The notes under the pieces are model-generated. The model worked only from the letters and a program-made list of their open reading frames with translations, was not told the origin of the DNA and did not search any database. Position numbers and translations under genes: made by a program. A stretch of 52,362 nucleotides of DNA from a virus. This document shows positions 1 to 42,115 of this stretch, in pieces (position 1 is the first letter of the stretch; the number at the start of each line of letters is the position of its first letter). The stretch is from positions 1-52,362 of the IMG/VR virus record IMGVR_UViG_3300028027_000073; one strand, given 5' to 3'.

Positions 1-7
1 ACGTCAT
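1..7 (-). CDS. 5' end of a leftward gene cut by the window edge
   Basis: Read on the minus strand, an AAGGAGAT ribosome-binding site at about 13-21 is followed by ATG ACG at 7-2 and then the edge. Only Met-Thr is visible. The position matches that of the leftward gene starting at 38577 (Met-Thr-Glu), but the second codon differs (ACG against ACA) and the third begins with T instead of G, so it is not the same allele. It is probably the first gene of a leftward early operon belonging to a unit to the left. Product unknown. Confidence 0.5.
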
Positions 8-35
8 TTTTATCTCCTTTATTTAACGTAAAGCG

Positions 36-64
36 ATATTAACATGTATAAAAATTATAGTCAA
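36..64 (-). promoter_or_regulatory. leftward early promoter (PL-like), first border
   Basis: On the minus strand, TTGACT (64-59), a 17-base spacer and TAATAT (41-36) form a good sigma-70 promoter about 30 bases upstream of the ATG at 7. The second border has a promoter-like element in the same place (38638-38610). It diverges from the rightward promoter at 108-136. Confidence 0.6.
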
Positions 65-107
65 CTAATATAAAAGTCGGATAAATACCCCCCTATTAAA
101 ATACTTG

Positions 108-136
108 TTGACATAAAAATTGACTAGGAGTATAGT
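108..136 (+). promoter_or_regulatory. rightward early promoter (PR-like), unit A
   Basis: TTGACA at 108-113, a 17-base spacer and TATAGT at 131-136 form a near-consensus sigma-70 promoter 25 bases before the first rightward start codon (161). An equivalent promoter lies at 38661-38689 in unit B. It should drive the rightward early genes up to 5170. No operator or repressor gene was recognised beside it. Confidence 0.75.
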
Positions 137-160
137 GGCTGTTCTAGTTTAGGAGTGGAT

Positions 161-292
161 ATGAAGGTAGATAGATTTATGCGTATTATCACTAATGACA
201 GGCTACAAAAAAAGTTTACACAAAAGTTCTATTATGTGGTAAAGTGGTTTTTAGTAATATTTTGGGGATATTTTTTATGGCACATTCTTTAA
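161..292 (+). CDS. small membrane peptide, 43 aa
   Basis: First rightward gene of unit A. ATG at 161 has an AGGAG site at 151-155. The N-terminal half is polar and basic, and residues about 24-41 form one hydrophobic, aromatic-rich membrane segment (YYVVKWFLVIFWGYFLW). It overlaps the next start by 16 bases. Unit B has an unrelated 31-aa membrane peptide in the same first position (38716). No known family was recognised. A role at the host membrane early in infection is possible but is only inference. Confidence 0.6.
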   Translation: MKVDRFMRIITNDRLQKKFTQKFYYVVKWFLVIFWGYFLWHIL

Positions 293-474
293 AACATATA
301 TCAGTTATTCTTGCTGATCTTGTAAAAGAGCTTAAAGAAGATAATGACAAATGGGAGAAAGCAAATGAGTCAAAGACAACATTACGATCAAATAATGATG
401 GAGCAACACCAGAAGGAAGTATTAGAAACATTACATTATGTAACAGGGGAGAAGAAGATGAGCATACACAGTAA
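277..474 (+). CDS. hypothetical early protein, 65 aa
   Basis: Starts at ATG 277 with a GGGGA site a few bases upstream, inside the end of the previous gene. The N-terminus is a charged helix (ISVILADLVKELKEDND) that resembles the product at 39099-39272 in unit B (ISEILEDVWKELKELND). The two are therefore probably orthologues with diverged tails. It ends inside the ERF gene start region. Function unknown. Confidence 0.5.
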   Translation: MAHSLKHISVILADLVKELKEDNDKWEKANESKTTLRSNNDGATPEGSIRNITLCNRGEEDEHTQ

Positions 475-877
475 GTTAATGCAAGCAAGATTAAAGTTAC
501 AAACAGCAGACCTTAAAAAGTCTGGTCATAATAAATTTGCAGGATACAAGTATTTTGAGTTAGGTGATTTCTTACCTACTATTCAAGAGATTTGTAATGA
601 GGTAGGTATTTGTGGCACAGTAACATTTTATACAGACATTGCAGTTTTAACTATTACAGACATGGATGATGCTACACAATTTATTGAGTTTAAATGCCCT
701 ATGTCTTCAGCAGCTTTAAAAGGTTGCCATGATGTGCAAAATCTAGGTGCAGTTCAAACTTATTTGCGTAGATATTTATGGACTAATGCTTTTGAGATTG
801 TAGAGCATGATGCTATTGACGCTAGTGCAGGTGCTGTTATTAAAATGAAAGATACTAAAGCAGAGGACTTTATCTAA
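458..877 (+). CDS. erf: ERF-family single-strand annealing protein
   Basis: The 139-aa product matches the ERF superfamily of phage recombinases: N-terminal KSGHNKFAGYKYF followed by the FLPTI core and the AVQTYLRRYLW region. These proteins coat single-stranded DNA and anneal homologous strands, working with a 5'-3' exonuclease. I chose ATG 458 because it matches the unit B start (39269) and has an AGGGGAGAAG site. The same frame stays open upstream to 344. The C-terminus is about 40 residues shorter than in unit B, ending soon after EHDAIDA. Its stop overlaps the exonuclease start by one base, which indicates translational coupling. Confidence 0.85.
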   Translation: MSIHSKLMQARLKLQTADLKKSGHNKFAGYKYFELGDFLPTIQEICNEVGICGTVTFYTDIAVLTITDMDDATQFIEFKCPMSSAALKGCHDVQNLGAVQTYLRRYLWTNAFEIVEHDAIDASAGAVIKMKDTKAEDFI

Positions 878-1479
878 TGGAACAACGATCAGAAGAGTGG
901 TTTCAAGCAAGGCTCGGTTTGGTTACAGCCAGTCGTGTAGCTGATGTATTAGCAAAGATTAAGAGCGGTGAATCTGCATCTAGACGTAACTACAAAATTC
1001 AACTAGTAAGCGAAAGGCTTACAGGTGAAAGGCAAGAAACATATATTAATCAAGCAATGCAAGACGGTATAGATAGAGAGCAATTTGCTAGAGATAGATA
1101 TGTGCAACAATTCGGGGAAGTGGAAGAAGTAGGGTTTATTCAACACCCTACTTTGGAAGCTGGTGCTAGTCCAGATGGTCTTGTAGGTACAGATGGGATT
1201 ATTGAAATTAAATGTCCTATGGGAAGTACCCATACAGAAACATTGATGACACAAGATATTCCAAGTAAGTACATTCCTCAAGTCCAGTTTCAACTTTTGG
1301 TTACAGGTCGTAAGTGGTGCGATTTTGTAAGCTATAACCCAATGTTTCCAGAGCATTTACAGGTATTTGTAAAGCGTATAGAAGCAGATCCAGTGTATCA
1401 AAAAGAGCTTGAGTCAGAAGTAAAACAATTCTTGGAAGAAGTAGATACAATCATAAATAAACTTAAGGAGATTAAGTAA
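877..1479 (+). CDS. YqaJ-type (lambda exonuclease family) recombination nuclease
   Basis: The 200-aa product has the YqaJ PD-(D/E)XK core: RSEEWFQARLG at the N-terminus, then GASPDGL and, after a short strand, IEIKCP. These supply the catalytic Asp, Glu and Lys. Such enzymes digest the 5' strand of duplex ends to give the 3' tails used by the annealing protein, here ERF, whose gene overlaps by one base. Unit B has a YqaJ protein at the same place that is similar only around the catalytic motif, so this nuclease has been exchanged while its ERF partner stayed nearly constant. Confidence 0.88.
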   Translation: MEQRSEEWFQARLGLVTASRVADVLAKIKSGESASRRNYKIQLVSERLTGERQETYINQAMQDGIDREQFARDRYVQQFGEVEEVGFIQHPTLEAGASPDGLVGTDGIIEIKCPMGSTHTETLMTQDIPSKYIPQVQFQLLVTGRKWCDFVSYNPMFPEHLQVFVKRIEADPVYQKELESEVKQFLEEVDTIINKLKEIK

Positions 1480-1679
1480 TGTTTAATGATATAGAAAGGC
1501 AAATGTTAATTAAAGCGTCTAGTGGATTACATGCAGAAACATTTCATTCATTAGATATTGAAGAGCAAGAGAAGCAAATGGAAAAGTTAGATAAAGTTAT
1601 TGGTCAGTTAATTAAACGTAATCCTGATAACTTTACAGGTAGCACAGTAGCAAATTTTTATAAAACACAAGGAAAATAA
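1479..1679 (+). CDS. hypothetical protein, 66 aa
   Basis: A small, charged, mostly helical protein whose ATG overlaps the exonuclease stop by one base. It sits between the exonuclease and the SSB-like gene, so a role in the recombination module is possible. Unit B has no counterpart there: its exonuclease runs straight into ssb. No motif recognised. Confidence 0.6.
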   Translation: MFNDIERQMLIKASSGLHAETFHSLDIEEQEKQMEKLDKVIGQLIKRNPDNFTGSTVANFYKTQGK

Positions 1680-1680
1680 A

Positions 1681-1911
1681 ATGGCAGAATATGACAACAC
1701 AAACACGTTTACTTTATTTAAGAATGACAAAGGTGACAATCCTAAACGACCAGATTACACAGGTATTGCTAACGTAGATGGTATTGAATTTAGAATTAGT
1801 GGCTGGATTAGAGAAAGTGCTAAAGGTAAGTTTATTAGTGGATCTGTACAACTAAAAGATGGTGATGTTAAGCCTAAACAAGCAGCAGTAGATGAGGATG
1901 TTCCTTTTTAG
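1681..1911 (+). CDS. small protein with an SSB-like C-terminal tip
   Basis: The 76-aa product occupies the place of the true ssb gene of unit B (40394-40798). It has a compact beta-rich body (NTFTLFKNDKGDNPKRPDYTG, then GIEFRISGWIRES) and an acidic, phenylalanine-ending tail DEDVPF. The last six residues are identical to the tail of unit B SSB and like the tip by which bacterial SSBs bind partner proteins. It lacks a recognisable classical SSB OB-fold and is about half the usual length. I infer a single-strand-binding or SSB-mimicking function. Its stop codon lies inside the hairpin at 1894-1921. Confidence 0.65.
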   Translation: MAEYDNTNTFTLFKNDKGDNPKRPDYTGIANVDGIEFRISGWIRESAKGKFISGSVQLKDGDVKPKQAAVDEDVPF

Positions 1912-1921
1912 GAACACCCTC
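1894..1921. terminator. stem-loop between convergent SSB-like gene and pqqA
   Basis: Arms 1894-1904 and 1911-1921 pair over 10 of 11 positions with one A-C mismatch and a 6-base loop, and contain the SSB-like stop codon. Unit B has a stem with a different sequence but the same layout at 40783-40807. Neither side has a strong U tract, so it may protect RNA ends or end transcripts weakly where the rightward operon meets leftward pqqA. Confidence 0.4.
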
Positions 1922-1932
1922 TCTAAATGTTA

Positions 1933-2004
1933 TTACTTGTTCATAACGTACATAGTTACTTCAAAGCCAAAACGCATTTCAGTTGCTGATGGTGATGTCC
2001 ACAT
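1933..2004 (-). CDS. pqqA: PqqA, peptide precursor of pyrroloquinoline quinone
   Basis: A 23-codon gene opposite to its neighbours. The peptide starts Met-Trp-Thr, has Pro at 5, and contains RFGFEVTMY, which places Glu15 and Tyr19 exactly as in typical 23-24 residue PqqA. These two side chains are cross-linked by the radical SAM enzyme PqqE and become the cofactor PQQ. An AGGAG site lies 6-7 bases before the ATG. The copy in unit B (40823-40894) differs at only two residues although flanking DNA is mostly unalignable. No pqqB-F genes are present, so host enzymes would be needed. PQQ serves periplasmic dehydrogenases such as methanol dehydrogenase. Family assignment is strong; the role in infection is inferred. 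Confidence 0.9.
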   Translation of the reverse strand: MWTSPSATEMRFGFEVTMYVMNK

Positions 2005-2022
2005 AGTTTGCTCCTTGTTTAT

Positions 2023-2042
2023 GACATACAAAATTGTTTGTC
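2023..2042. promoter_or_regulatory. operator-like palindrome upstream of pqqA
   Basis: The 20 bases have the form GACA-N-ACAA-NN-TTGT-N-TGTC, 16 of 20 positions symmetric, 19-38 bases upstream of the pqqA start. Such a site could bind a dimeric regulator or be part of the leftward pqqA promoter. I see no convincing -10/-35 pair and unit B does not keep the palindrome. Confidence 0.3.
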
Positions 2043-2120
2043 TAGCAAATTATGCTGTTTTTGCAATACAAAAGCAAGTAAGAAATATTTATATTACCCT
2101 AATGAAAATACGGAGACATT

Positions 2121-2450
2121 ATGGAAGAGATTATAGATTTTGATGACAATAGTGTGTTGGCACATACCCCAGAAGGTAAATTGCTAACATGTATACTAAC
2201 GCAAGCAGTAGAAGATGCTTTATATAGACACGCACCTAATAAATCAGGTACTAAAAATATGAAGTATCATCATAAGATTAATTTTGAAAACAAAATAGAC
2301 GCTATTAAATGGTTGTTTACTAATAGCGAATTATTAGATTCATGTTGTTTTGTAGTAAACGTGCATAAAGATTCTATTAGAAAAAAGATAATAGATATTA
2401 TAGGTGCAGATGTTATTCATCCACTTGTGTATAATGTTTACAAACCATAA
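2121..2450 (+). CDS. hypothetical protein, 109 aa
   Basis: ATG at 2121 has a GGAGA site just upstream (2111-2115), and the stop overlaps the next start (TAATG). The sequence is soluble, with an acidic N-terminus and mixed charged segments, and no family was recognised. It is absent from unit B, where the cell-wall hydrolase directly follows the pqqA region. It is probably accessory early cargo. Confidence 0.6.
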   Translation: MEEIIDFDDNSVLAHTPEGKLLTCILTQAVEDALYRHAPNKSGTKNMKYHHKINFENKIDAIKWLFTNSELLDSCCFVVNVHKDSIRKKIIDIIGADVIHPLVYNVYKP

Positions 2451-2839
2451 TGGACATGCAACTGACAGAGCATGACGTTCATTGTATAGCTACAGCAGTC
2501 TATACAGAAGTCAATACACAATCACTACAAGAAAAACTAGGAGTTATTCATGTGATTGCCAATAGAATAAGGTCTAAAAGATTTGGCAAAGATGCTTGTG
2601 AGGTTGTATATAGTCGTGGGCAGTTCATAGGGGTAGAAAACTATGTAAATGGTAAGCAATCTAAACCCGATCAAAAAATGTTTTTAGAAACTCAATTACT
2701 GGTACTTGACACATTAGTTTTTAAGAAGTATGCTAACCCAGTTGCAAATAGCTTGTATTTTCATGATGATAGTATAGATATGCAATTTATTTGGAATAAA
2801 AAGAAAGTAGTCCACATAGGAAGGATGGTATTTTATTAA
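2450..2839 (+). CDS. SleB/CwlJ-like cell wall hydrolase
   Basis: The 129-aa product matches the compact hydrolase-2 domain (SleB/CwlJ family): HCIATAVYTEVN, then EKLGVIHVIANRIRS, CEVVYSRGQF and the C-terminal SLYFHDD region. Family members cleave peptidoglycan; the acidic residue in AVYTEVN is the likely catalytic Glu. There is no signal peptide, so access to the wall would need lysis or another route. The unit B homologue is at 40998-41387. It lies in the early operon, far from the lysis cassette, so a role other than final lysis is likely. Confidence 0.8.
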   Translation: MDMQLTEHDVHCIATAVYTEVNTQSLQEKLGVIHVIANRIRSKRFGKDACEVVYSRGQFIGVENYVNGKQSKPDQKMFLETQLLVLDTLVFKKYANPVANSLYFHDDSIDMQFIWNKKKVVHIGRMVFY

Positions 2840-3069
2840 TGAAACCGTTAGCATGGCTTGTAGAAGAGTTTGATAGCACAGGTAAACTTGTATGGTCTGG
2901 TCTTATGACTTCAGAACCTACGGAACTTTCATGGTTAAAAGACCTTAAATTAAAACTTCATAATGTTACGATAACACCATTAATACCAGATACCAAAAAT
3001 ATTGTAAAAGTAACTAATGTTAAAAAATATGATAGCAAAAAACTAACGGAGGCTTACGGTGGCAACTAA
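2839..3069 (+). CDS. hypothetical protein, 76 aa
   Basis: The start overlaps the hydrolase stop by one base (TAATG). The protein begins PLAWLVEEFDSTGKLVWS and continues with ITPLIP, a pattern shared with the 81-aa product at 41387-41632 in unit B (VAWLYEEFD...ITPLF). The pair is therefore a conserved small early family that always follows the hydrolase. No catalytic motif seen; function unknown. Confidence 0.65.
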   Translation: MKPLAWLVEEFDSTGKLVWSGLMTSEPTELSWLKDLKLKLHNVTITPLIPDTKNIVKVTNVKKYDSKKLTEAYGGN

Positions 3070-3796
3070 ACCAAATTTATTTATAGCAACACCAATGTAT
3101 GGAGGTTTATGTTATGGCACTTATTTAGAGTCTATGCTTAAACTGCAAGCATGGCTTAATGCTAAAGACATAGAAGCATACTTTTCATTTTTGTATAATG
3201 AAAGCCTTATTACTCGTGGTCGTAATACATTAGTGAATGACTTCTTAAAGGGTGACGCTACACACTTAATGTTTATTGATGCTGACATACAGTTTGAGGC
3301 ACAACACTTATTAAAGATGATTGACTCTGATGTAGAGATTATATGTGGCTTGTATCCTAAAAAAGAAATTAATTGGGGTGCAGTATCTTTTGCTATTGAA
3401 AAGAAAGTGCCACAGGATCAACTTAAATACTTTACTGGCGAGTATGTAGTAAATATGGTTGGCGATGTTGAGAAACAACTTGTGCCATTAGATAAGCCAT
3501 TTGAGATTAAACATGGTGGCACTGGATTTATGTTGATTAAACGTGAAGTATTTGAAAAGCTCAAAGACAAGTGTCCATCTTATACACATAACATGAATGA
3601 TGTAAATGATAACTCTGATTTAGGTGACAAGGTTACAGAATACTTTACCACTAGCATTGATGACCGAAATCATTTATTAAGTGAGGATTATCATTTCTGT
3701 AAACTAGCTAGGGATAATGGTATTAAGGTTTGGGGTGCAGCATGGGCACAACTAGGTCACACAGGCACTTATCAATTTAGTGGCAGGCTTGTATGA
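3059..3796 (+). CDS. GT-A fold glycosyltransferase
   Basis: The start is GTG 3059, chosen for the GGAGG site at 3048-3052. The 245-aa protein begins with a strand and loop PNLFIATPMYG, has a metal-binding DxD motif in MFIDADIQF at about residues 78-86, and a later GGTGFMLIKREVF segment, as in family 2-like phage glycosyltransferases. It probably transfers a sugar from a nucleotide sugar. Its stop overlaps the FkbM methyltransferase start by four bases, and the pair is missing from unit B. The acceptor (DNA, virion or host glycan) is unknown. Confidence 0.75.
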   Translation: MATKPNLFIATPMYGGLCYGTYLESMLKLQAWLNAKDIEAYFSFLYNESLITRGRNTLVNDFLKGDATHLMFIDADIQFEAQHLLKMIDSDVEIICGLYPKKEINWGAVSFAIEKKVPQDQLKYFTGEYVVNMVGDVEKQLVPLDKPFEIKHGGTGFMLIKREVFEKLKDKCPSYTHNMNDVNDNSDLGDKVTEYFTTSIDDRNHLLSEDYHFCKLARDNGIKVWGAAWAQLGHTGTYQFSGRLV

Positions 3797-4377
3797 TTAT
3801 ACCTAATGACATGATTAGCCATGTAGGTAAGATATTTCAAGGTGAATATGCTATAGAAGGTATAGGAAAAAGCCCTTATATTATAGACATTGGTGCTAAC
3901 GTAGGTGGATTTGCAGTATGGGCACATGAATACTTTGATAAACCAAAGATAGATTGCTATGAGCCTATAAAAGCTAACTATAGTTTATTAAGGCAAAATA
4001 CAGCAGGAACTGATATAGCTATTAGAAACTTTGCTATTGGTAAAGAAGATGGTGAGCGTATGATGTACTACGGATTAAATAACTGTGGTGAAGCTAGTAT
4101 GTTTCAAGGCAAAGAACAAAGAGCAGAAGGTGAAATGGTTAAAGTAATGTCTGCTAAACACTTGCCAGAGTGTGCCATCATGAAAATAGATACTGAAGGT
4201 GCAGAAATAGAGATACTAGAGAACTTGACTGTACAACCAGTAGTATTTCTTATAGAATTCCATAGTGCATGGAATAGAAGACGTATAGATGAATTATTGT
4301 ATGACTATACCTTGATAGATTGCACAATGCGTGGTTATAATTACGGAATCTTAAAGTACTTAAGAGGTAAATTTTAA
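3793..4377 (+). CDS. FkbM-family methyltransferase
   Basis: The 194-aa protein carries an S-adenosylmethionine-binding motif IIDIGANVGGFA near residue 32 and the FkbM signature MKIDTEGAEIEIL near residue 130. FkbM enzymes O-methylate sugars and related substrates. It overlaps the glycosyltransferase by four bases (ATGA), so the two probably act on one glycan. Both are absent from unit B, where the slot holds small genes (41622-42113). It is likely transferred accessory cargo. Confidence 0.82.
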   Translation: MIIPNDMISHVGKIFQGEYAIEGIGKSPYIIDIGANVGGFAVWAHEYFDKPKIDCYEPIKANYSLLRQNTAGTDIAIRNFAIGKEDGERMMYYGLNNCGEASMFQGKEQRAEGEMVKVMSAKHLPECAIMKIDTEGAEIEILENLTVQPVVFLIEFHSAWNRRRIDELLYDYTLIDCTMRGYNYGILKYLRGKF

Positions 4378-4389
4378 AAGGAGAATCAT

Positions 4390-4668
4390 ATGGATAATAT
4401 CAATCATCCAAAGCATTACTTGGTAGGTGGTATAGAAGCAATAGATGTTATTGAAAGTCGCTTGACAAAAGAAGAGTTTATTGGATACCTAAAAGGCTGT
4501 AAAATGAAATACGACTTACGCTACCCTTTTAAAGGCAAGTTTGAAGAAGATTTAGACAAGTCTGAATGGTATAAAAATAAACTATTAGAAATAGTTAAAG
4601 ATGAAGATGTTGTTAATCCACCAGAGGTTGCTGCTCAATTACAAAGACTAGAAATGGTTGATGATTAA
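4390..4668 (+). CDS. DUF3310 protein (T7 gp1.7-like)
   Basis: The 92-aa product has the DUF3310 pattern: HPKHYLVGGIEAIDVI, then EEFIGYLKGCKMKYDLRYPFK and a Lys-rich dimer-like region DKSEWYKNKLLE. In T7 the related gp1.7 affects nucleotide phosphorylation; most phage members are uncharacterised. An AAGGAG site precedes ATG 4390. The unit B orthologue (42116-42391) is highly similar. Its end overlaps the next start. Confidence 0.85.
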   Translation: MDNINHPKHYLVGGIEAIDVIESRLTKEEFIGYLKGCKMKYDLRYPFKGKFEEDLDKSEWYKNKLLEIVKDEDVVNPPEVAAQLQRLEMVDD

Positions 4669-5170
4669 CATTCCGATCAAGGATGAAATTGTTAGTCATT
4701 GTAGAAGTTTACTAAAAAAAACTAACTTTGGTAATAGAGGTGTTGCTGATGGCAATGCCTCTGAACAGTTAAGAGGTATTGTAGGTCAGTCTGTTGTTTT
4801 AGATTTTTTAGGATTACCATTCATTGAATCTAATGGATTTGATAATGGAATAGATTTTACATATAAAGATAAAACGTATGATGTAAAAACTATGGGAAGA
4901 AATTGTGAGCCAAAGCCATATTTTGTAAATAATCTAATTGGATTGCAAGATAAATACAAAGTAGATAGATACATATTTTGTAGTTTAAATAGAACCAATA
5001 TGATATTAACTATTTGTGGCTGGATAGATAAAAATGATTTTATTGAAAAAGCTAGTTTTTATAAAAAAGGTACTGTAAGAACTAGAAGTGATAATACATT
5101 TTTTCAAACAAAAGCTGATTTGTATGAATTACAAAACAAAGAATTGAATGATTTTAGTTTAATCGTCTAG
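4661..5170 (+). CDS. putative PD-(D/E)XK-type nuclease
   Basis: I use ATG 4661, which overlaps the DUF3310 stop. The 169-aa protein begins with a helix and the segment NFGNRGVADGNASEQLRG, followed by GFDNGIDFTYKDKTYDVKT. The Asp...Asp-Val-Lys arrangement on adjacent strands fits a PD-(D/E)XK nuclease fold. No family is certain. It is the last rightward gene of unit A and converges with the leftward gene ending at 5159, overlapping by 12 bases. Unit B has a different nuclease-like gene in this slot (42532-42888). Confidence 0.55.
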   Translation: MINIPIKDEIVSHCRSLLKKTNFGNRGVADGNASEQLRGIVGQSVVLDFLGLPFIESNGFDNGIDFTYKDKTYDVKTMGRNCEPKPYFVNNLIGLQDKYKVDRYIFCSLNRTNMILTICGWIDKNDFIEKASFYKKGTVRTRSDNTFFQTKADLYELQNKELNDFSLIV

Positions 5171-5326
5171 TTCTGGCACTTCTGAATAAACGGAAAGCCC
5201 ATCACCACTAATTTCAATGTGGCTTCCGTCATCTAACATTATAATAAGCACGTCTTCACCGTAATAGGCTTCTGCTTCTACTACCATTTTGCCTACCATG
5301 TGCTCACATAACTGTTGAATGTTCAT
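5159..5326 (-). CDS. hypothetical acidic protein, 55 aa
   Basis: I chose ATG 5326 with an AAGGA site upstream, nine bases after the exonuclease stop. The protein is acidic with the motif MLDDGSHIEISGDGLSVYSE. The unit B orthologue (42885-43061) keeps LDDDSMIEISGEELAIYGE, so it is a real conserved gene. It is the last leftward gene of the late strand. Function unknown. Confidence 0.7.
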   Translation of the reverse strand: MNIQQLCEHMVGKMVVEAEAYYGEDVLIIMLDDGSHIEISGDGLSVYSEVPELDD

Positions 5327-5334
5327 AATTTTCC

Positions 5335-6072
5335 TTATATGCTGATAACTGATTCTTTTGTAACTTGTTCTGATTTCACTGATCTGCTCCATTTACCACA
5401 TCCTTGACATTGGAATCGTTGATAGTGTCGTGATAAATTAACTGCTGAACCACGCTTTTGTAATTTGCTAGAACCGCAATTTGGACATACTGTATTTGCG
5501 GAATACGCATTGTGGTTAGGATGATTTTTAATCCATGCTTTAAACTTGTCATAAACTTTTTCAAGTAGTACTACATCGTTTTTATTGTACTCTTCCATAG
5601 TCTTCCAAGCTTTACGATCATCGTTCATACACTTAACCCACAATGTATGACCTTCATGTTCTGTTTTAGAACCTAAACCTAAAGCCTGTGATACATAATC
5701 TAGTTTGTTAGAAACAAACCTAAATTGTCTACGAGCTACTTGTAATAAATCTATCTGTTTGGCAGGTGCTGGAGGCGGCATACCTGCTAATAAGAATTCT
5801 TTGTGTAGTATGGGTATGTCAAACCTAGAACCGTTGTAATGGACTATAGCATCAGCTTCATCAAGAAGTTTATGCACAGAGTCTAGCATCTTTTGTTTGC
5901 CAGATTTTTGAATAGAATCAAACATGATTTTAGATTCACCGTACCACTTGGCTGCATAGCAAAGGGTATAAGATGATTCTAATAATTGATTTATAGAGAT
6001 GTTCTGGTCAAAGATACCCCAGACATGAGCAGTATTTGGTGCTACTTCTATATCAATAAGTAAAATTTTCAT
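5335..6072 (-). CDS. DnaQ/RNase H-like 3'-5' exonuclease with C-terminal zinc ribbon
   Basis: The 245-aa protein has DEDD exonuclease motifs: Exo I ILLIDIEVAP (Asp7, Glu9), Exo II HYNGSRFDIPIL near residue 78, and Exo III YNKNDVVLLEKVY near residue 160. The tail holds a zinc ribbon CPNCGSSKL...CQGCGKW. It resembles the YprB-type RNase_H_2 group, probably degrading or proofreading nucleic acid 3' ends. Unit B has a metallophosphoesterase in the same slot, a clear gene exchange. It is placed after the endolysin, at the end of the late strand. Confidence 0.82.
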   Translation of the reverse strand: MKILLIDIEVAPNTAHVWGIFDQNISINQLLESSYTLCYAAKWYGESKIMFDSIQKSGKQKMLDSVHKLLDEADAIVHYNGSRFDIPILHKEFLLAGMPPPAPAKQIDLLQVARRQFRFVSNKLDYVSQALGLGSKTEHEGHTLWVKCMNDDRKAWKTMEEYNKNDVVLLEKVYDKFKAWIKNHPNHNAYSANTVCPNCGSSKLQKRGSAVNLSRHYQRFQCQGCGKWSRSVKSEQVTKESVISI

Positions 6073-6099
6073 AATAACCTTTAGTTATAAGTTTACTTA

Positions 6100-6624
6100 T
6101 TATATACCAAGAAATAGTCTGCGTTCATCCAATCTTCTGTTTTGTAAGCCTTTTAGGACTTTACCACCAGCTCTACAATATTTAACTAGCGATTCCATAG
6201 CCGTTTCTTTATCGCCACGAAGCAACGCTTGACGGATGGTTGAACGCTGAAAGCATCCAAGACCCAGATTAAAGCAAAAGCTGACAAGAGCGTCAAACTC
6301 ATGTTGTCGTAAAGGCACGTTAGGTAACATCTTATGTACTCCCAACTCAAAACGGTTGAGGTCTCGTTTAAGAATTGCATCTATTTCCTCGTTAGTAAAT
6401 GTTTTGTTCCATTCAGGCGGTAATGTTTTTCCATCACCAATCAAATGACCAATTCCCACTGTCCATAGTTTTGCGGGACACTGGTATGGTTTGTTTCTAA
6501 CACCTTCATGATGTCGGATTAACTTAATTGCCTCTTTAGATACTTTCACGTTTCTTTTCCCAAGTGCGAGAACCAAAGTAAAAGCCAATAATACTTGCAG
6601 TAATAGCCATTTCTTCAGAGCCAA
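6100..6624 (-). CDS. GH24 endolysin (T4/P22/lambdoid-type lysozyme)
   Basis: The 174-aa protein begins with a hydrophobic signal or signal-anchor segment (residues 6-22) and continues with the GH24 active site: Glu40 in HHEG, Cys49 in QCPA and Thr55 in WTVGIGH, exactly the spacing Glu-8-Asp/Cys-5-Thr of the family. It cuts the glycan strands of peptidoglycan. The hydrophobic N-terminus suggests Sec export or SAR-type release. It overlaps the holin gene by 89 bases in another frame. Unit B has a near-identical copy, including a 207-bp block without differences (6223-6429). Confidence 0.92.
   Translation of the reverse strand: MALKKWLLLQVLLAFTLVLALGKRNVKVSKEAIKLIRHHEGVRNKPYQCPAKLWTVGIGHLIGDGKTLPPEWNKTFTNEEIDAILKRDLNRFELGVHKMLPNVPLRQHEFDALVSFCFNLGLGCFQRSTIRQALLRGDKETAMESLVKYCRAGGKVLKGLQNRRLDERRLFLGI
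6223..6429. repeat. 207-bp block identical to 43925-44131
   Basis: By direct reading, these 207 bases inside the endolysin gene match the unit B copy with no difference, while DNA on either side differs every 10-30 bases. It covers the active-site core and the following helices. It is the longest exact repeat I found and a likely spot for recombination, or for assembly joining, between the units. Confidence 0.85.
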
Positions 6625-7033
6625 ATACTTCTTGTGAAGCTACAACAAAGTCAACACCTGACCACATAGCCCATACCAAAGAAATAAGGTTGATAAGCAC
6701 TAACTCCCCTACAAAGATGAAAGCGACTACAGGTCTAACCATAGCGTTCCAGTTCTTAACTGTAGGGCTTGCATTTTCTACTAGCTTCTTATCGTGGTCG
6801 TATAATGCTTCACGTTCTTGTGCGTATGTTTGAACTTCTATTTGGTCTAGCTTAATAGCTTCTATCTTTTCTTGTGATATAAAGCCTGCTTTAGCTAATT
6901 CTAATTCACGTTCTGTTTGTAGTTTAGCCATTTCTCTTTCATGCTTTTGGTCACCTTTTTGCTGAAAGAAACCTAAAACACTGGGTAAGCCTGAAGTAGC
7001 AAAACCTAATATACCTGATAAAATACTTAACAT
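6536..7033 (-). CDS. holin, three-transmembrane type
   Basis: The 165-aa protein has a short hydrophobic N-terminus (LSGILGFATSGLPSVLGFF), a long charged helical middle (QKHEREMAKLQTERELELAK) and two C-terminal membrane segments (PVVAFIFVGELVLINLISL and AITASIIGFYFGS). This is the layout of the 3TM holin family (GTA_holin_3TM). It lies directly upstream of and overlaps the endolysin gene. It would permeabilise the inner membrane at lysis. The unit B copy is almost identical. Confidence 0.8.
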   Translation of the reverse strand: MLSILSGILGFATSGLPSVLGFFQQKGDQKHEREMAKLQTERELELAKAGFISQEKIEAIKLDQIEVQTYAQEREALYDHDKKLVENASPTVKNWNAMVRPVVAFIFVGELVLINLISLVWAMWSGVDFVVASQEVFGSEEMAITASIIGFYFGSRTWEKKRESI

Positions 7034-7393
7034 CTATAACTCCTTTGGATCAAAGCCATACATTTTGGCTACACGTTTTTGTAATTTAAGAAACAAGCCT
7101 TTATGACTTGTGTACTGCTCTGTTTTTGGTGAAACTGTATATACACACATATGCAATATTTCATGGCAAAGTGTAATTAACACAGGGTATAAGTGAGAAT
7201 GTCTTGCAGTAGATATAGTAATAACATGTGGCTCACCTTGTTCTGGTGGTTGATATTCTCCACATATAGCATTGTCATTTACGATAACAAAGTCTACTTT
7301 AGATGCTGGTGGTAATTTGTATTCATCAAATATAGGCATCTCTATAATTGCACTATAGAGGTTAGCTATATTATTTTCTGTAATGAATGTCAT
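7034..7393 (-). CDS. HExxH zinc metallopeptidase-like protein
   Basis: The 119-aa protein contains ITLCHEILHMCVY with His77, Glu78 and His81, the zinc-binding HExxH motif, and a later SHKGLF segment that could give a third ligand, like small SprT/WLM-type proteases. It lies between the coiled-coil membrane protein and the holin; the stop is one base from the holin start. The unit B copy keeps the motif. The target is unknown; capsid, host or lysis roles are all possible. Confidence 0.7.
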   Translation of the reverse strand: MTFITENNIANLYSAIIEMPIFDEYKLPPASKVDFVIVNDNAICGEYQPPEQGEPHVITISTARHSHLYPVLITLCHEILHMCVYTVSPKTEQYTSHKGLFLKLQKRVAKMYGFDPKEL

Positions 7394-7797
7394 TTTGATA
7401 ATGGGTTCATTGTGCTACGTTTAACAGTATTTAGTTTATCATCCATTGCGTTTACGGTTGCTTCTAATTCTTTACGCAGACCTGATACCATAGCTGAAGT
7501 CTCACGAGAGTTGGCAATAGCGTCTGAAGACTTTTCACTAGCTTTCATAATAGATTCAGATAGTTGGTATTGTCTTTCATTTATTGCTTTAACTTGTATT
7601 TCTAAACCATTTAATTTAGACTCTATGGGAGCTAAATCTAAACTGTCAACAGCTTCAATTGCCGTAACCATCTTGTTGTAAAAAGTTATGCCTGCGTATG
7701 CCGAGCCAGCTACTATTGGCAATGCTATTAAAATCAATTTCAGAAGTGCCGAGCTGGATAAGCTCAAGCTGAAGGTTTTGATTTTTTCCGAACTCAT
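7390..7797 (-). CDS. membrane-anchored coiled-coil protein
   Basis: The 135-aa protein has one membrane segment (LLKLILIALPIVAGSAYAGI, about residues 18-37) followed by a long predicted coiled coil. It lies in the lysis cassette, where such a protein could be a spanin-like or accessory factor, but no spanin partner with a lipobox is visible. Its first 143 bases overlap the end of the Cys-rich protein gene in another frame. It is nearly identical in unit B. Confidence 0.7.
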   Translation of the reverse strand: MSSEKIKTFSLSLSSSALLKLILIALPIVAGSAYAGITFYNKMVTAIEAVDSLDLAPIESKLNGLEIQVKAINERQYQLSESIMKASEKSSDAIANSRETSAMVSGLRKELEATVNAMDDKLNTVKRSTMNPLSK

Positions 7798-8728
7798 TGT
7801 TTATCTCCGTATCAAATTTAAATGCGTCTGTTATTTCTATTTGTTGTATAATAGGTTTGTTAAGTATTTCTAATGAAAGGACTATTCCAAAACCATGTAC
7901 AAGCTCTTTACCCTTTGGTACGTCAAGTTTAGGACTCTCCTTGCTCTCATTCTTTTGTTCAGTCTTTGGTGGGTCTTTTGGGCTGTCTTCTTTTGCTTTT
8001 GGCTCACTTTTAGTTTCTTGTTTTGGTTGTTCAACCTTAACAGGAGCTGACTCTACTTTAGGTGGTTCAGGTGCAGCTAATGGGTTTACTTCTGGAGCAA
8101 CAGCAGGTGGTGGTGCAGGAGGTGGATTATTTACAGGGTTAAGGGGTGAGCTAGGGCTAACTGGAGAACTCACGTTAGTGACGTTTGTAGCACTCTTAAC
8201 ACATGTATTGTTTGTTTCTACCCAACCATTCCATACAGGACTTCCATAAGGGTCTGGGCAAGATGAAATGTTAGTTTCTGTAATAGAACCTACATAGTCT
8301 GCTTGACAGGCTAGTTGCCTAGTTTCAACACTTGCCTGACACGTTGGAGGGTCTTGTGTGCAGTTGTTGCTAGTTTCTGTCCAAGCTGACCAGCTTTGCG
8401 TAGAACAACTAAAATTCCTGCTTTGATTAACAGCACCGCTATAGTGAGGTAACGTACAAGCTGTGGTTTGATTTTCAACCAAGTCTGAACAAGCAGGTGT
8501 TTGATACGCACCGCATATTGGGTCACTTGGGTTATAAGATACGCACCAATAGTCTTTAATTGCAATGATTGGATCAATGCCATGACATACGAGAGAACCT
8601 TGAAGCATATAGCCTTCAGGCGTTGGAGTATAGTTGCAATACCAAGCATAAGCATTATTTACCTTTGTTAATGATAGAAGTAGTAATAGGCTCGTCAGCA
8701 ACAAGCGGTATCGTGTATGTATCGCCAT
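7655..8728 (-). CDS. secreted Cys-rich protein with proline-rich linker
   Basis: I chose ATG 8728 because it begins a clean signal peptide (RYRLLLTSLLLLLSL...NAYA). The mature part has repeated Trp/Cys modules (SWSAWTETSNNC, VWNGWVETNNTC) reminiscent of thrombospondin type 1 repeats. It then has a Pro/Lys/Glu-rich linker of about 100 residues and a compact C-terminal domain. It is 357 aa long. It overlaps the genes on both sides in other frames. The protein is probably exported to the periplasm or envelope before lysis. The unit B homologue differs mainly in the linker. Confidence 0.75.
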   Translation of the reverse strand: MAIHTRYRLLLTSLLLLLSLTKVNNAYAWYCNYTPTPEGYMLQGSLVCHGIDPIIAIKDYWCVSYNPSDPICGAYQTPACSDLVENQTTACTLPHYSGAVNQSRNFSCSTQSWSAWTETSNNCTQDPPTCQASVETRQLACQADYVGSITETNISSCPDPYGSPVWNGWVETNNTCVKSATNVTNVSSPVSPSSPLNPVNNPPPAPPPAVAPEVNPLAAPEPPKVESAPVKVEQPKQETKSEPKAKEDSPKDPPKTEQKNESKESPKLDVPKGKELVHGFGIVLSLEILNKPIIQQIEITDAFKFDTEINNEFGKNQNLQLELIQLGTSEIDFNSIANSSWLGIRRHNFLQQDGYGN

Positions 8729-9161
8729 ATAGTTTCTTGAATATAGAAGGGTTACGTTCATACCAACCACGTTTAGCAGCATCACCAATAGAACCATTTA
8801 TAGGACATGGTGAGCCTGACTGTATCATGGCTTCAAATACTCTATCGTCTTGACACAAGATAGATACTGCTGCAACTTTAAGACCTAAATCATTAAGAGT
8901 TTTAGCCAGTTTAATGCGTTCACAATTAACGTCTTTATAGCCAGAGCCACCACTTAAGCCAAACAATGTACTAGATACAGAACCAGTAACAGGAACAATA
9001 CAAACGTCTTGGCTAAAAGCACTTATAGAAGGGCTAATGGCACTAGGTGGTGGTTGACCTTTATAGTTAATAGTAGTAGTATCAGCGTGTGCAGTATGAA
9101 CCATAAATAAAACAAGTAAAACAATAATTGTCCAACTAAATATTTTAGAAAATGTTTTCAT
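8655..9161 (-). CDS. secreted protein of unknown function, 168 aa
   Basis: A signal peptide (residues about 6-26, ending AHA) precedes a soluble domain with conserved cysteines (DVCIVPVTGS, DVNCERIKLAKTLNDLGLKV, CQDDRVFEAMIQSGSPCP). The unit B copy (46357-46869) has the same mature domain but an unrelated signal peptide, so the export signal has been exchanged. It precedes and overlaps the Cys-rich secreted protein; the two may act together in the envelope. Confidence 0.75.
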   Translation of the reverse strand: MKTFSKIFSWTIIVLLVLFMVHTAHADTTTINYKGQPPPSAISPSISAFSQDVCIVPVTGSVSSTLFGLSGGSGYKDVNCERIKLAKTLNDLGLKVAAVSILCQDDRVFEAMIQSGSPCPINGSIGDAAKRGWYERNPSIFKKLYGDTYTIPLVADEPITTSIINKGK

Positions 9162-9162
9162 G

Positions 9163-9321
9163 TTACATAAATTTATGAGTTAATAGAAATACAATCACAA
9201 AACCTGCTGTTCCTAATAGTATTTGTTCTAAACGTTTGAGTCTTGCATTTATTTGTTCATAGCGTAAAGCACATACTTCTTCGTGTGTACTCAATCTTGA
9301 TTCTACGTCTGACTTCACCAT
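9163..9321 (-). CDS. coiled-coil tail-anchored membrane protein, 52 aa
   Basis: A short gene with a charged helical part (RYEQINARLKRLEQILLG) and a C-terminal membrane segment (TAGFVIVFLL). This resembles small XhlA/holin-accessory type phage proteins. The unit B copy (46869-47027) is the same length and 44 or so residues match, which supports coding. An AAGGAT site precedes ATG 9321. It may help lysis, but the class is inferred from architecture only. Confidence 0.75.
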   Translation of the reverse strand: MVKSDVESRLSTHEEVCALRYEQINARLKRLEQILLGTAGFVIVFLLTHKFM

Positions 9322-9381
9322 CTTATCCTTTCGGAGCATTATATAAGTTTATAGGGGGTAGGTATAAATCGTGCCATTCAA

Positions 9382-11001
9382 TCATTGTTGATTTTGATAC
9401 ATTTTATCTAATTGTTGTAAGTATAAATCTGGCTCTAATAAACTTTGAGCCTCTTGTACTTTCTTAAGCTGTACACCTGCTTTAGCTGTTAAGTCAATAG
9501 GTGTTCCATATCTAGCTACTTTGCCACCAGCTTGAGTTAGCAATCCAGTAATTTTAGGCGATGTAATACCAATACCAAGTGCTGTTAATGGGCTTAATCC
9601 AGTACCAAATGCAATATTAAGTAACCCACCAGCACCACCCAAAGTACCAAGAACACTTTTTGGTTCAAAAGATTTCATAGATGCACCAGCAATTTCTGTA
9701 GATAAATCAATGCCAGTAGCCTTTTGCATTTTATCAGCAAGTGATAATTTAACACCAGTTTCATCACGAGTTGTTCTTAATAATTTTCTTAATGCTGTTT
9801 CTTGAGATGCTTTATTTCCACCAATAAGACCTCTGTCAATCTCTCTAATAGTTTCAATAGAGTTTTCGTAATCTGCCATTGCTTTTTTGTACTCTGGCAC
9901 TTCTTTAACAAGGTAGTTTTTTACACCATTACGAGTGGTGTCTATAACTCTTTGTGCTTGAGTCATCTTTACATCGTCTGGATACACAGCATCTATTCTT
10001 TGTTTTAAAAAGTCTAAACCAGCTGCTGTATGTAATTTAGGTTGAGATTCCCATGTATTAAGAATTTTCTCTACTTCATTAATTGCTGCTAATTCTTTAT
10101 CACCAACACTTACTTGACCTTTGTAAGTAATAGATTTTTTAGCATTATCAAAAGTTTCTCTAATTGGAGCAAAGTCTAATTTAGCTGGACTTGCAGCCCA
10201 TCCAGTATCTGTACCTTTAAATTGGCTTGATTTTTTAGCTGTTGAATATTGCAAATTTTTCTGTGCAATCATTTCTTGTAAACCAGCTTTTGCTTTATTT
10301 AATATTTCTATTGATTCTGTTTTTCCTACAATTTGATTAATTGCAGTATCAATACCAGCTTTAGAAGCTTCATATACTTTTTTAATAGCTTCACCACCAA
10401 CACCAGTTGTTAATCCTAGTATTGGAGGAAGACCAGCTTCTAGCACTTTACCGCTCATATATAATGGATTTGTTACTTTAGATAACTCTGAAAATCCTAC
10501 AGCAGGTGTAGTTACTTGCCTCTCTGTAAATGGAACTTTGCCTGTAACAGATGGAATTTTGTATGGCACAGCTTTAGATGCAATACCAGCACCTGTAGAT
10601 ATATCAAGCAATGCCTCTACTGGTCTTTCTTGAGCATATTGTTTAAATGATTCTGCACTTTGGTACGGTGCTGCAAATGCTCTAAACATTTCTTCTTGTC
10701 TAGATACTGGCATTTTTTCCAATACTTTTTCTGGAGAATACATTTGACCTAAACTTTTTCTTGCTGCTGCTTGTGCACCTCCAGCAAGAGTTTCACCAGC
10801 TGCATAACCAACTTGTGGTGCGTTAGTGATTACATTGTAGCCACCACGCAATATATCCAATAAGTTTTGAGGCACATTTGCACCAGCTTGTAAAAAAGAA
10901 AAGTTTGTTGGAACATCGGCTACAGCACCTGCTTTTAATGGACCAGATGTAGTAATGTCTGGAACTTTATTTTGCGTTAATTTATATAAATCTTCAGCCA
11001 T
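9382..11001 (-). CDS. internal virion (ejection) protein, 539 aa
   Basis: A long helical protein with Ala/Gly-rich hydrophobic stretches (AAGETLAGGAQAAARKS; LGTLGGAGGLLNIAFGTG) and no enzyme motif. It is the last of four consecutive virion genes placed as P22 gp7/gp20/gp16 or T7 gp14-16 are. I infer an ejection protein that crosses the envelope with the DNA. Unit B carries a protein with a different N-terminus and similar C-terminal architecture in the same slot (47037-48458). Confidence 0.55.
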   Translation of the reverse strand: MAEDLYKLTQNKVPDITTSGPLKAGAVADVPTNFSFLQAGANVPQNLLDILRGGYNVITNAPQVGYAAGETLAGGAQAAARKSLGQMYSPEKVLEKMPVSRQEEMFRAFAAPYQSAESFKQYAQERPVEALLDISTGAGIASKAVPYKIPSVTGKVPFTERQVTTPAVGFSELSKVTNPLYMSGKVLEAGLPPILGLTTGVGGEAIKKVYEASKAGIDTAINQIVGKTESIEILNKAKAGLQEMIAQKNLQYSTAKKSSQFKGTDTGWAASPAKLDFAPIRETFDNAKKSITYKGQVSVGDKELAAINEVEKILNTWESQPKLHTAAGLDFLKQRIDAVYPDDVKMTQAQRVIDTTRNGVKNYLVKEVPEYKKAMADYENSIETIREIDRGLIGGNKASQETALRKLLRTTRDETGVKLSLADKMQKATGIDLSTEIAGASMKSFEPKSVLGTLGGAGGLLNIAFGTGLSPLTALGIGITSPKITGLLTQAGGKVARYGTPIDLTAKAGVQLKKVQEAQSLLEPDLYLQQLDKMYQNQQ

Positions 11002-11009
11002 GTTTTATC

Positions 11010-12536
11010 CTAGAAATAATATAATTCGTTATTCATAATGTAATACTGTGCATTTGGATCTAATCCAGACGCTTTGGCTGGGAAACGTTTTTTAATATAT
11101 GGGTTTGCACCAGAATATACTTTAATTTCACCTTTGTCTGTTTTTACTTTTGTTTCTAATGGTAAAAATTCTGATTTTGGAAACTCAAAGTCATTACCAT
11201 AATCATTTGCATATCCTTGATTAAGGTTAGCTTTTGCAGCTTGAATAGTTTGTAATAACTCAACAACTACTCTTTTACCTTCTTCTGGAGGAAGACCTAA
11301 CTTAATTTTATTTAAAGAAGCAATAATTCTATCGCCTTCTTTTTCTGATAAATTTCCTGTTCCAGCTGCACCAGAAGGTGAAAGTGCTTTTAGTTTTTTT
11401 AATTCACTTACTAAAGACGCACCTTCTGTACTTGTAATAAGGTTATTTAATTTAAATGCAGAAGTTCCTTCTATACCAGCACGCTTACTTGCTAAAGGAC
11501 CAAAAGCATTATCAAAATCTTTATCTGTAATAATATCGTATACTGTTTTTTCAAAATTATTTAAACTTGTAAATGAATCTGTTAATCTTTTTTGAATTTC
11601 ACTTTGATTATCTTTTAACTGCTGTCTTGTAACTGCAGAAACATCTTGTCTATTTACAAATGGAATGGTAGATGTTGTTTTTGCAGCAGGAGTAGGATTT
11701 GCAGATACATTTGTTTGCGGAACTTTTGTTGTATTAACTGCAGCAGGTTGAGTTTGTTGCGTAACCTGTGGTTGCGTTACTGGTGCAACATTAGTTTGTG
11801 TAGCGGTAGTAACTTGTGGCTGAACAACAGGTTGATTTGCTTGACTCATTCTGTTTGCTCTATCTAGTTTAATTTGAGCAATAATTTTATCTGCAGATGG
11901 CAATTCATCAAGTGGAGCACTTGGTAATTTGGCTTTAAATTCAGCTCTAGGAACTGCTTGTTTTGACTTTTCTATAGAAGAAACAGCAATAGCGTCTTTT
12001 GCAATACGCACATCAGCCATATCTTGTGCAGATGGGCTTTGAGGATTAATACCAAGTTCTTGCATAATTGAAAGATCTTGTTTATCAATCTCTGGAAGAG
12101 GTCTAAATCTTTCTTGTGTTTTTTGTAGTCTTTCTAATGTGCCTTTTGGATCAATAAAAAAAGCATTTGCTAATTCTGGGTTATTTCTAATAGCGTCTGC
12201 TAAACCAGCTTCTGTTCTTTCAAAACCTTTTAATTCAAACTGACCCTTTTTAATATTTTGCATAAGGTTAGTTAATTCAGTAGTAGTCATAAGGTTTCTA
12301 GTAGCTGCATCTATAGGAGCTTGTCTTCCTCCAACAGCACCAGTAAATCCACCTAATGCAGCACCAGCAACACCTTTATTCCAATTAGAAGCAATACCAG
12401 TAGCTAAACCAAGACCAGTGCCAATAAGTTGTTGCGTCTTAAGTCTTTCCTGTTCTTCTGGAGATAAAAGACCTGCAACAGGGCTTTGTCTTGTAAGAAA
12501 TAATGTATCTAATAAACCTTGAAAATTATCTGCCAT
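11010..12536 (-). CDS. internal virion protein, 508 aa
   Basis: It starts FQGLLDTLFLTRQSPVAGLL and has a Gly-rich segment (LGLATGIASNWNKGVAGAAL) near residue 50, a helical part, a Gln/Thr/Pro-rich low-complexity linker near residues 240-290, and a helical C-terminal domain. Unit B has a shorter relative (363 aa) lacking most of the linker. Position suggests an ejection or internal core protein. No enzyme motif found. Confidence 0.55.
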   Translation of the reverse strand: MADNFQGLLDTLFLTRQSPVAGLLSPEEQERLKTQQLIGTGLGLATGIASNWNKGVAGAALGGFTGAVGGRQAPIDAATRNLMTTTELTNLMQNIKKGQFELKGFERTEAGLADAIRNNPELANAFFIDPKGTLERLQKTQERFRPLPEIDKQDLSIMQELGINPQSPSAQDMADVRIAKDAIAVSSIEKSKQAVPRAEFKAKLPSAPLDELPSADKIIAQIKLDRANRMSQANQPVVQPQVTTATQTNVAPVTQPQVTQQTQPAAVNTTKVPQTNVSANPTPAAKTTSTIPFVNRQDVSAVTRQQLKDNQSEIQKRLTDSFTSLNNFEKTVYDIITDKDFDNAFGPLASKRAGIEGTSAFKLNNLITSTEGASLVSELKKLKALSPSGAAGTGNLSEKEGDRIIASLNKIKLGLPPEEGKRVVVELLQTIQAAKANLNQGYANDYGNDFEFPKSEFLPLETKVKTDKGEIKVYSGANPYIKKRFPAKASGLDPNAQYYIMNNELYYF

Positions 12537-12538
12537 GA

Positions 12539-14388: not shown

Positions 14389-14398
14389 ATCTAGTTCC

Positions 14399-14797
14399 TT
14401 AAAGTGTATATTCCCATGTTTGAGGTTTAAAACCCATCTGTCTTGCTTTACGTTCCCATCCACGTCTTTCGGAGTTAAACGTAACTTTAGTTTTACCGCC
14501 TTGTTTTGCTATTTGTTGAATCTCTTGAAATGCTTGTGTAAAGAGTGCCTCATCATTAATTAATGACCATGCAGCCCATACATGAAGCCTGTTTCCGATT
14601 GGTTGAAGTACTACGAATCCTACTGGTTTATTGTCTATTATTCCCATAAACAACATAGAACGTTGCTCATAGCAATCACAATATACATCTTCTGGTATAT
14701 ACTCGGTATGACCTTTAGACCTGACTATTTCTAATCCGTGTCTAATGTATTCCCAATGTTGACGTAAATTATCTTTAGGTATGTAATGTAAAATCAC
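14399..14797 (-). CDS. GNAT-like protein (T7 gp13-type position)
   Basis: The 132-aa product starts at GTG 14797, overlapping the upstream stop. It shows a GNAT-like order: an acceptor-side N-terminus (PEDVYCDCYEQRSMLFMG), a central strand pair, then KVTFNSERRGWERKARQMGFKP. The last part is typical of the degenerate acetyltransferases next to phage internal proteins. It may be structural rather than enzymatic, as T7 gp13 is. Unit B has two such proteins here. Confidence 0.65.
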   Translation of the reverse strand: MILHYIPKDNLRQHWEYIRHGLEIVRSKGHTEYIPEDVYCDCYEQRSMLFMGIIDNKPVGFVVLQPIGNRLHVWAAWSLINDEALFTQAFQEIQQIAKQGGKTKVTFNSERRGWERKARQMGFKPQTWEYTL

Positions 14798-39272: not shown

Positions 39273-39282
39273 GCATTCATAA
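39196..39282 (+). CDS. possible overlapping peptide, 28 aa
   Basis: A GGGAGAG site precedes ATG 39196. The peptide (DQFYQEVMQELHEMETKQQE in its core) lies in a second frame across the previous gene and into erf. In unit A the frame upstream of erf gives a similar stretch (EQHQKEVLETLH), fused in frame with erf. Weak but repeated. Confidence 0.25.
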   Translation: MEDQFYQEVMQELHEMETKQQERINEHS

Positions 39283-39811: not shown

Positions 39812-40410
39812 GTCATTTAACCGACAATAGACGTCATAATATTATTACAGCTAGCAATGCTTGGTCTGCTGTGTATGAGAGACAAAAATTATGGCGTCAA
39901 ATGACTTTAAGAGAAGCTCCATTTGAAGGCAATGAAATGACTGAATGGGGTAATCTTAACGAACATCTTGCTATTTGTGAGTTTGAAAAAGCTATGGGAG
40001 AGATTACTGAAACTGGTAATAAGTTAATTGTTCATCCTGATTTACCATTAGGTGCAAGTCCAGATGGATTCTTAAATAGGCTGCCAATAGAAGCAAAGTG
40101 TCCTTATAGCCAAGAGTTTTATGGTATGATTCCAGACCGTTATTATTTCCAAACACAGTTACAAATGGAAGTATGTGGTGCTCCAAGATGTTATTTTGTA
40201 GTGTGGACACCAAAAGGAATTACTATACAAATTATTGAAAGAAGTAAAGAATGGTTTGACTGGTATAAACCTTTAGCGTTAGAATTTATGAAGTTTGTAG
40301 AAGATGATGTAGAGCCTACTCGTTGGAAACGCAAACCCATATTTGATATAGATTTGAAAGAAGATAAATTATTATTTCCAAAGGAGCAACAAGATGGCAT
40401 CAGTAAATAA
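39808..40410 (+). CDS. YqaJ-type exonuclease, distinct from that of unit A
   Basis: A 200-aa protein with [20 protein letters not shown] at the N-terminus, [13 protein letters not shown], then the catalytic [18 protein letters not shown] and [15 protein letters not shown]. Family and length equal the unit A enzyme but the sequence outside the active-site region is unrelated. It processes ends for ERF. It overlaps the SSB start by 17 bases. Confidence 0.85.
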
Positions 40411-40798
40411 AGCAATTATCGTAGGTAATTTAGGGAAAGACCCAGAGGTTAAATTTTTAACTAATGGTGACGCTGTGTGTAGTTTTAGTATTGCTACTAC
40501 TGACAGTTGGAAAGATAAAGCAGGTCAAAAGCAAGAAAAAACAGAATGGCATAACATTGTTATGTATAGAAAGTTAGCTGAAATTGCTGGTGAGTATCTT
40601 AAAAAAGGCAGTCCAGTATACGTTGAAGGTGCTTTACAAACTCGTAAATGGACTAATAAAGAAGGTCAAGATAAATATACAACTGAAATTGTAGCAAACA
40701 GTATGCAAATGTTAGGCGGTAAAACTTTACAACAAGAACAAAATAATACTAGAAGTGGTCCTGCTATTGAAGGGGCAGATGAGGACGTGCCATTTTAA
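40394..40798 (+). CDS. ssb: single-stranded DNA-binding protein
   Basis: The 134-aa product is a classical [55 protein letters not shown] and [16 protein letters not shown] form the OB-fold, followed by a short linker and the acidic DEDVPF tip. An AAGGAGCAAC site precedes ATG 40394. It protects single strands and recruits partners. Unit A has only a 76-aa substitute. Confidence 0.92.
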
Positions 40799-40807: not shown

Positions 40808-40822
40808 CCATTAGCATGATAA

Positions 40823-40894
40823 CTATTTGTTCATTACGTACATAGTTACTTCAAAGCCAAAACGCATTTCTGTAGCTGCTGGAGTTGTCCACAT
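40823..40894 (-). CDS. pqqA: PqqA, peptide precursor of pyrroloquinoline quinone
   Basis: A 23-codon gene with an AAGGAT site before ATG 40894. It has the same RFGFEVTMY core with Glu15 and Tyr19 as the copy at 1933-2004, differing only at residues 4 and 6 (Thr for Ser, Ala for Ser). Of the eight base differences, five are silent or in the stop codon. It lies in the same slot and orientation as in unit A, after ssb and before the hydrolase. A TATAAT lies upstream on the minus strand (about 40951-40946) but without a good -35. Confidence 0.9.
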   Translation of the reverse strand: MWTTPAATEMRFGFEVTMYVMNK

Positions 40895-40997
40895 GGTATT
40901 TATCCTTAAGTAATATATTATGCTTAATTGCACAATATAATGGAATTATACGCTTATGTGGGTTTGCTAGACACCAGATAATCATTAAAGGTAGATA

Positions 40998-42113: not shown

Positions 42114-42115
42114 AT

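Follow-up and report, generated by a model that had tools for sequence, protein, structure and literature searches.

Is a leftward reading frame of 23 codons plus stop in a viral record a true gene for PqqA, the PQQ precursor peptide, and what could a phage do with such a peptide in the absence of PQQ enzymes? The question arose from the IMG/VR record IMGVR_UViG_3300028027_000073. The whole stretch of DNA analysed, 52,362 nucleotides, is termed the window.

Identification of pqqA in the window

The frame on the minus strand (copy A, Table 1) encodes the peptide MWTSPSATEMRFGFEVTMYVMNK. A preliminary description of this DNA had recognized a 23-codon leftward gene with the PqqA signature Trp2, Pro5, Glu15 and Tyr19 and with its own ribosome-binding site. 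The signature is exact in the translation, and an AAGGAG motif, a strong Shine-Dalgarno site, is located 6 nt before the ATG. Lack of a match to a PqqA model would have refuted the assignment; copy A scored 38.8 bits against the Pfam PqqA model PF08042 (curated cut-off 21.1) and 34 bits against the NCBIfam model TIGR02107 (cut-off 20), passing both, while none of the 14 control genomes matched in the Pfam search. The glutamate and the tyrosine of the ExxxY motif, the source of atoms of PQQ, are present as E15 and Y19. A clear consensus sigma-70 promoter was not found upstream of copy A or of the second copy described below. The frame on the opposite strand (1892-2143, plus strand) was considered as a coding alternative and not adopted; the sequence variation falls at the third positions of the pqqA frame.

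The gene lies alone beside a gene for a single-strand DNA binding protein, in a direction opposed to the recombination block, and the record also encodes terminase, portal and capsid (major head protein). One criterion of an auxiliary metabolic gene is a host-derived metabolic gene in a true viral genome, and pqqA satisfies it: phage genes accompany it in the record, cultured phages carry it in their complete genomes, and a peptide identical to host copies occurs. Elsewhere in the window, two neighbouring genes with frames of 335 and 521 aa share 300 bases at ~69 % identity (19825-20123 and 21249-21547); they are perhaps related tail genes.

Table 1 Features at the two pqqA loci of the window
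Feature	Position	Strand	Evidence
pqqA copy A, MWTSPSATEMRFGFEVTMYVMNK	1933..2004	-	translation; Pfam PF08042 38.8 bits; TIGR02107 34 bits
Shine-Dalgarno AAGGAG, 6 nt 5' of copy A ATG	2011..2016	-	sequence
Single-strand DNA binding protein, convergent neighbour of copy A	1681..1911	+	PHROG 18154, E 1.7e-14
Erf-like annealing protein and YqaJ/RecE-type exonuclease (recombination block adjoining pqqA)	344..1479	+	PHROG 155, 149
Endolysin-like gene, other side of pqqA	2450..2839	+	PHROG 938, E 1.2e-13
pqqA copy B, MWTTPAATEMRFGFEVTMYVMNK	40823..40894	-	38.1 bits; part of 14798-52362 genome; independent contig
Shine-Dalgarno AGGA for copy B, spacing 8	40903..40906	-	sequence
Single-strand DNA binding protein, convergent neighbour of copy B	40394..40798	+	PHROG 44, E 2e-56

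Two related phage genomes in one record

A second pqqA (copy B) had escaped the preliminary description, as had the composite nature of the record. The product of copy B is letter for letter the commonest peptide found in host Methylophilaceae. Alignment of the window with itself revealed that 1-14980 is collinear with 39254-52362 at about 69-98 % identity. An independent viral contig of 35.5 kb aligns first with 42886-52362 and then with 14798-40946, at 99.4-99.8 %; it joins 52362 to 14798 in an unfused arrangement and presents a single-copy genome with copy B only. Judged from these alignments, two related phage genomes of ~37 kb have been fused in the record. Since the independent contig joins 52362 to 14798, the region 14798-52362 is one circularly permuted genome of ~37.5 kb with copy B, and 1-14797 is the corresponding arm, in diverged form, from a related phage with copy A. 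Parts of the Manatee Spring phage MW202481, which has a single pqqA, match this arm at about 81-92 % identity. The window thus has two pqqA copies because the record fuses two related phages. A true duplication within one phage was ruled out by the single-copy independent contig with copy B alone: the copies belong to separate phages.

Occurrence in cultured phages and metagenomes

The PqqA peptide was compared by tblastn with 50,697 phage records. Full-length or near full-length peptides were present in nine named records of Methylophilales or Methylophilaceae phages (P19250A, Venkman, MEP301, MEP401, MEP402 and four Melnitz strains) and in MW202481; among the matches, real phage PqqA was confined to methylophages and one related metagenomic phage. 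Two other matches were discarded. The match in E. coli phage ERS-1 was a chance hit inside a long unrelated frame, and the Acinetobacter 'phage' MD-2021a resembles host DNA, its contig CAKLQF020000010 having ppk and pqqABCDE and the look of a host chromosome. An alphaproteobacterial PqqA query had no match in the named phages.

All six cultured pelagic Methylophilales phages that we found carry pqqA; later isolates may exist. The LD28 phage P19250A is the sixth isolate with the gene, beside five OM43 phages. Three earlier OM43 isolates were counted in the 2023 paper that added MEP401 and MEP402 (PMC10580990). The peptides of the cultured phages are all above the Pfam cut-off, and a purine-rich ribosome-binding site precedes each gene. 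That pqqA would be too short for most gene callers was borne out: in no cultured phage is it annotated as PqqA, the locus being either blank or overlain by a 'hypothetical protein' on the opposite strand, and a PHROG family for the peptide was not found. Melnitz (L248, 3961-4056 (-)) and MW202481 (L249, 2067-2195 (-)) have such an annotation opposite pqqA, which is probably a spurious gene.

Metagenome loci were gathered with degenerate DNA patterns. The GFEVTMY pattern matched at least 120 IMG/VR contigs; all 120 listed were PqqA peptides, and the gene is present in well over 120 contigs. Fifty viral records, preselected by a PqqA pattern match, were tested against the Pfam PqqA model and all passed. 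The preliminary description would have been contradicted by a lack of conservation in related phages; pqqA was found in relatives as well as in these contigs. Among relatives identified through the window terminase, it was present in 6/6 of at least 35 kb and in 15/24 overall, the nine without pqqA being contigs of about 30 kb or less. With the Venkman-type terminase, five of six long contigs had the gene. With the MEP401-type terminase it was found in two of ten contigs, and one contig of 42.8 kb lacked it; many contigs of these two sets are fragments. The gene is therefore frequent, not universal, among methylophage contigs. It occurs in Kyanoviridae (Melnitz), Zobellviridae (MEP401/402) and other unrelated groups, and its neighbour genes vary between phage groups; pqqA has thus been acquired on more than one occasion or passes from phage to phage.

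A broad pattern for other PqqA types retrieved three peptides of alphaproteobacterial type on phage contigs, together with some chance matches that are not PqqA. These three loci (L289, L290, L300) have the EVTSY form; their IMG/VR contigs lack PqqE, and two of these contigs measure 53-71 kb. They suggest that phage pqqA extends beyond methylophages.

Absence of PQQ enzymes and proposed role

The preliminary description rightly stated that the phage carries the substrate peptide without the PQQ enzymes: neither PqqE nor, by tblastn, any of PqqB-E was found in the window. PqqE was absent from all 50 viral records with PqqA, many of which are fragments. A tblastn search of the viral pqqA loci with PqqB, C, D and E as queries found none, whereas the same search matched 16-23 host loci, and no PQQ enzyme is listed near pqqA in complete cultured phage genomes. 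A complete viral PQQ pathway, i.e., pqqB-E in the phage, is not given. A PQQ alcohol dehydrogenase was detected in one of 50 tested viral records with pqqA, and the other 49, many of them fragments, were without it. The one positive record, of 72 kb (G015; L392, L393, also L046), combines pqqA with a frame of 628 aa for a full PQQ-dependent alcohol dehydrogenase. In host Methylophilaceae, orphan or tandem pqqA copies were observed (L177, 4355-4389 (-); L142, L145, L207), and about 20 of 120 fetched host loci were near pqqB-E.

We hold it to be highly probable that pqqA is a true auxiliary metabolic gene of planktonic Methylophilaceae phages, supplying precursor peptide for host PQQ synthesis. 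This rests on the observed identity, conservation, peptide selection, absence of the enzymes and spread over unrelated methylotroph phages. The phage gene would be translated from its own ribosome-binding site, host PqqD would bind the peptide, host PqqE would cross-link Glu15 to Tyr19, and the remaining host Pqq enzymes would complete PQQ. The cofactor would then serve the PQQ-dependent methanol dehydrogenase that feeds the energy metabolism of the host. Infection may shut down host expression, and in that case stable enzymes would persist and the peptide would run out. One PqqA peptide is used per PQQ made. As PqqA is consumed one-for-one and the enzymes would persist, a phage would need to supply the peptide only. 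Of the readings considered, an increase of PQQ for methanol dehydrogenase in infected cells has the best support; expression during infection, processing by host enzymes and an effect on PQQ and phage yield are all inferred, without experimental proof of the function.

Biochemical studies have established that PqqE cross-links the glutamate and the tyrosine of PqqA and that PqqD is a peptide chaperone; of the five pqqA copies of a PQQ producer grown on methanol, three are separate from the pqq operons (PMC9851590). Cell extract converted 70-80 % of added PqqA to PQQ (cited in PMC9851590). In Acetobacter, over-expression of pqqAB, a part of the pqq cluster, increased PQQ by 29 % (PMC7936290). 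The same study counts against the role, as over-expression of pqqAB lifted PQQ far less than that of the whole cluster (PMC7936290). Hosts that already possess several pqqA copies may not be limited in substrate, which also counts against it, as do the lack of expression data, the missing clear promoter and the absence of the gene from some relatives.

Selection on the peptide and alternative explanations

A phage peptide could also act as a decoy or regulator that loads host PqqD and PqqE, or signals, and thereby lowers or redirects PQQ synthesis. The phages have no PqqE, and an enzyme-free mimic of the substrate could compete with the host peptide; PQQ output would then follow phage dosage. 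A decoy, however, need not keep all substrate residues, and these are kept including the cross-linked pair. A pattern restricted to the N-terminal half yielded at least 120 matches, 119 with complete sequence, and Glu15 and Tyr19 were present in 119/119 of the complete sequences listed, although the pattern did not demand them. Several phage peptides, among them that of copy B, are moreover letter for letter a host peptide. We regard a decoy or regulator as unlikely.

A neutral hitchhiker, newly taken from the host, would be small, would resemble host peptides and would be patchy among close relatives, all of which applies to pqqA. The codons left free by the pattern, however, had a pN/pS of about 0.085 (106 distinct viral sequences); the host copies had 0.126, several of those codons being fixed by the fetching pattern. 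A ribosome-binding site was kept in 136 of 143 distinct viral pqqA loci, compared with 8.9 expected from shuffles, and the gene is present in every one of the six relatives of the window type of at least 35 kb. Broken copies were not frequent either: the sole incomplete match among the 120 listed for the N-terminal pattern (L259) ended inside the pattern, with no further sequence returned. Neutral carriage is thus very improbable. For this small open reading frame, ribosome-binding site and purifying selection were seen; its expression is inferred.

Still less credible is a host fragment that serves as attachment or recombination site, or a locus constrained as DNA or RNA rather than as peptide. 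The similarity between the window and P19250A indeed ends at the borders of pqqA (1933-2008), like that of a short shared cassette. A tyrosine integrase was, however, absent from 22/22 long records including the window, in a search whose control was positive in 14/14 genomes, and an Rfam search of the window had no match. Heterozygosity was 0.38 at third codon positions versus 0.07 at first and 0.05 at second positions, so that synonymous sites vary freely. Strong purifying selection acts here, and what it preserves is the peptide rather than the DNA. Contamination by mis-sorted host DNA does occur, with MD-2021a as the sole case found, yet it is practically excluded here, having been refuted already by the complete genomes of cultured phages with pqqA; in the window, ssb, Erf, exonuclease and endolysin genes flank the gene in a record with terminase, portal and capsid.

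Significance and comparison with known systems

Supply of the precursor peptide to the host thus remains our preferred reading. The preliminary description considered that phage pqqA might be unreported. This did not hold in general: the gene was reported in passing, together with methanol dehydrogenase, in a T4-like virus of Lake Baikal (PMC7678222), and it appears in a list of virus-encoded genes (PMC13188868). It stood for cultured phages and for the spread of the lone substrate gene, for which no report was found in the open-access literature searched; pqqA goes unmentioned in the genome papers of MEP301, Venkman, MEP401/402 and Melnitz. Within that literature, the new finding is that the substrate-only form of pqqA is both common and conserved, and that it has gone unnoticed in isolated phages.

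It is likely that planktonic methylotroph phages of several unrelated families repeatedly acquire and retain a single part of the pathway to a ribosomally made cofactor, its consumable precursor peptide, that cofactor supply through a substrate peptide alone is a general way to run methylotroph energy metabolism in infection, and that it was overlooked in isolates since so short a gene is passed over by callers and lacks a PHROG family. In coastal seas and in lakes, the OM43 and LD28 methylotrophs are abundant consumers of methanol. Should their phages routinely supply PqqA, a peptide of 23 residues would be the means by which viruses act on aquatic methanol oxidation. Whether a phage supplies no more than the substrate that a cofactor pathway consumes can be tested cleanly in cultured phage-host pairs, i.e., Venkman or Melnitz on H5P1, MEP301 on HTCC2181 and P19250A on IMCC19250. 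Culture media used for OM43 have included PQQ as an additive (PMC9004378). Blindness to small genes hides auxiliary metabolic genes.

The window gene shares with the PqqA family (PF08042/TIGR02107) the sequence, the length, the N-terminal half with Trp and Pro, the EVTxY core and the spacing of the cross-linked Glu and Tyr; it differs in being encoded by a phage, alone and away from pqqBCDE. Phage auxiliary metabolic genes such as cyanophage psbA place a fast-consumed part of a host energy pathway on the phage. Phage pqqA is alike in this respect, but the psbA protein turns over, whereas PqqA would be a consumed cofactor precursor peptide, a role that is inferred. The orphan pqqA genes of Methylophilaceae chromosomes encode the same peptide, often outside the operon, as in LSUCC0665 (L177), which has no pqqB-E neighbour, and in the strain of PMC9851590; they differ in being chromosomal. 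Another close system is the Lake Baikal viral population VP_266 (PMC7678222), likewise a Methylophilaceae phage with pqqA and a proposed support of methanol oxidation. It is T4-like and carries methanol dehydrogenase, in which it is resembled by the 72-kb record with pqqA and the alcohol dehydrogenase, whereas the phages of the window have genomes of ~37 kb.
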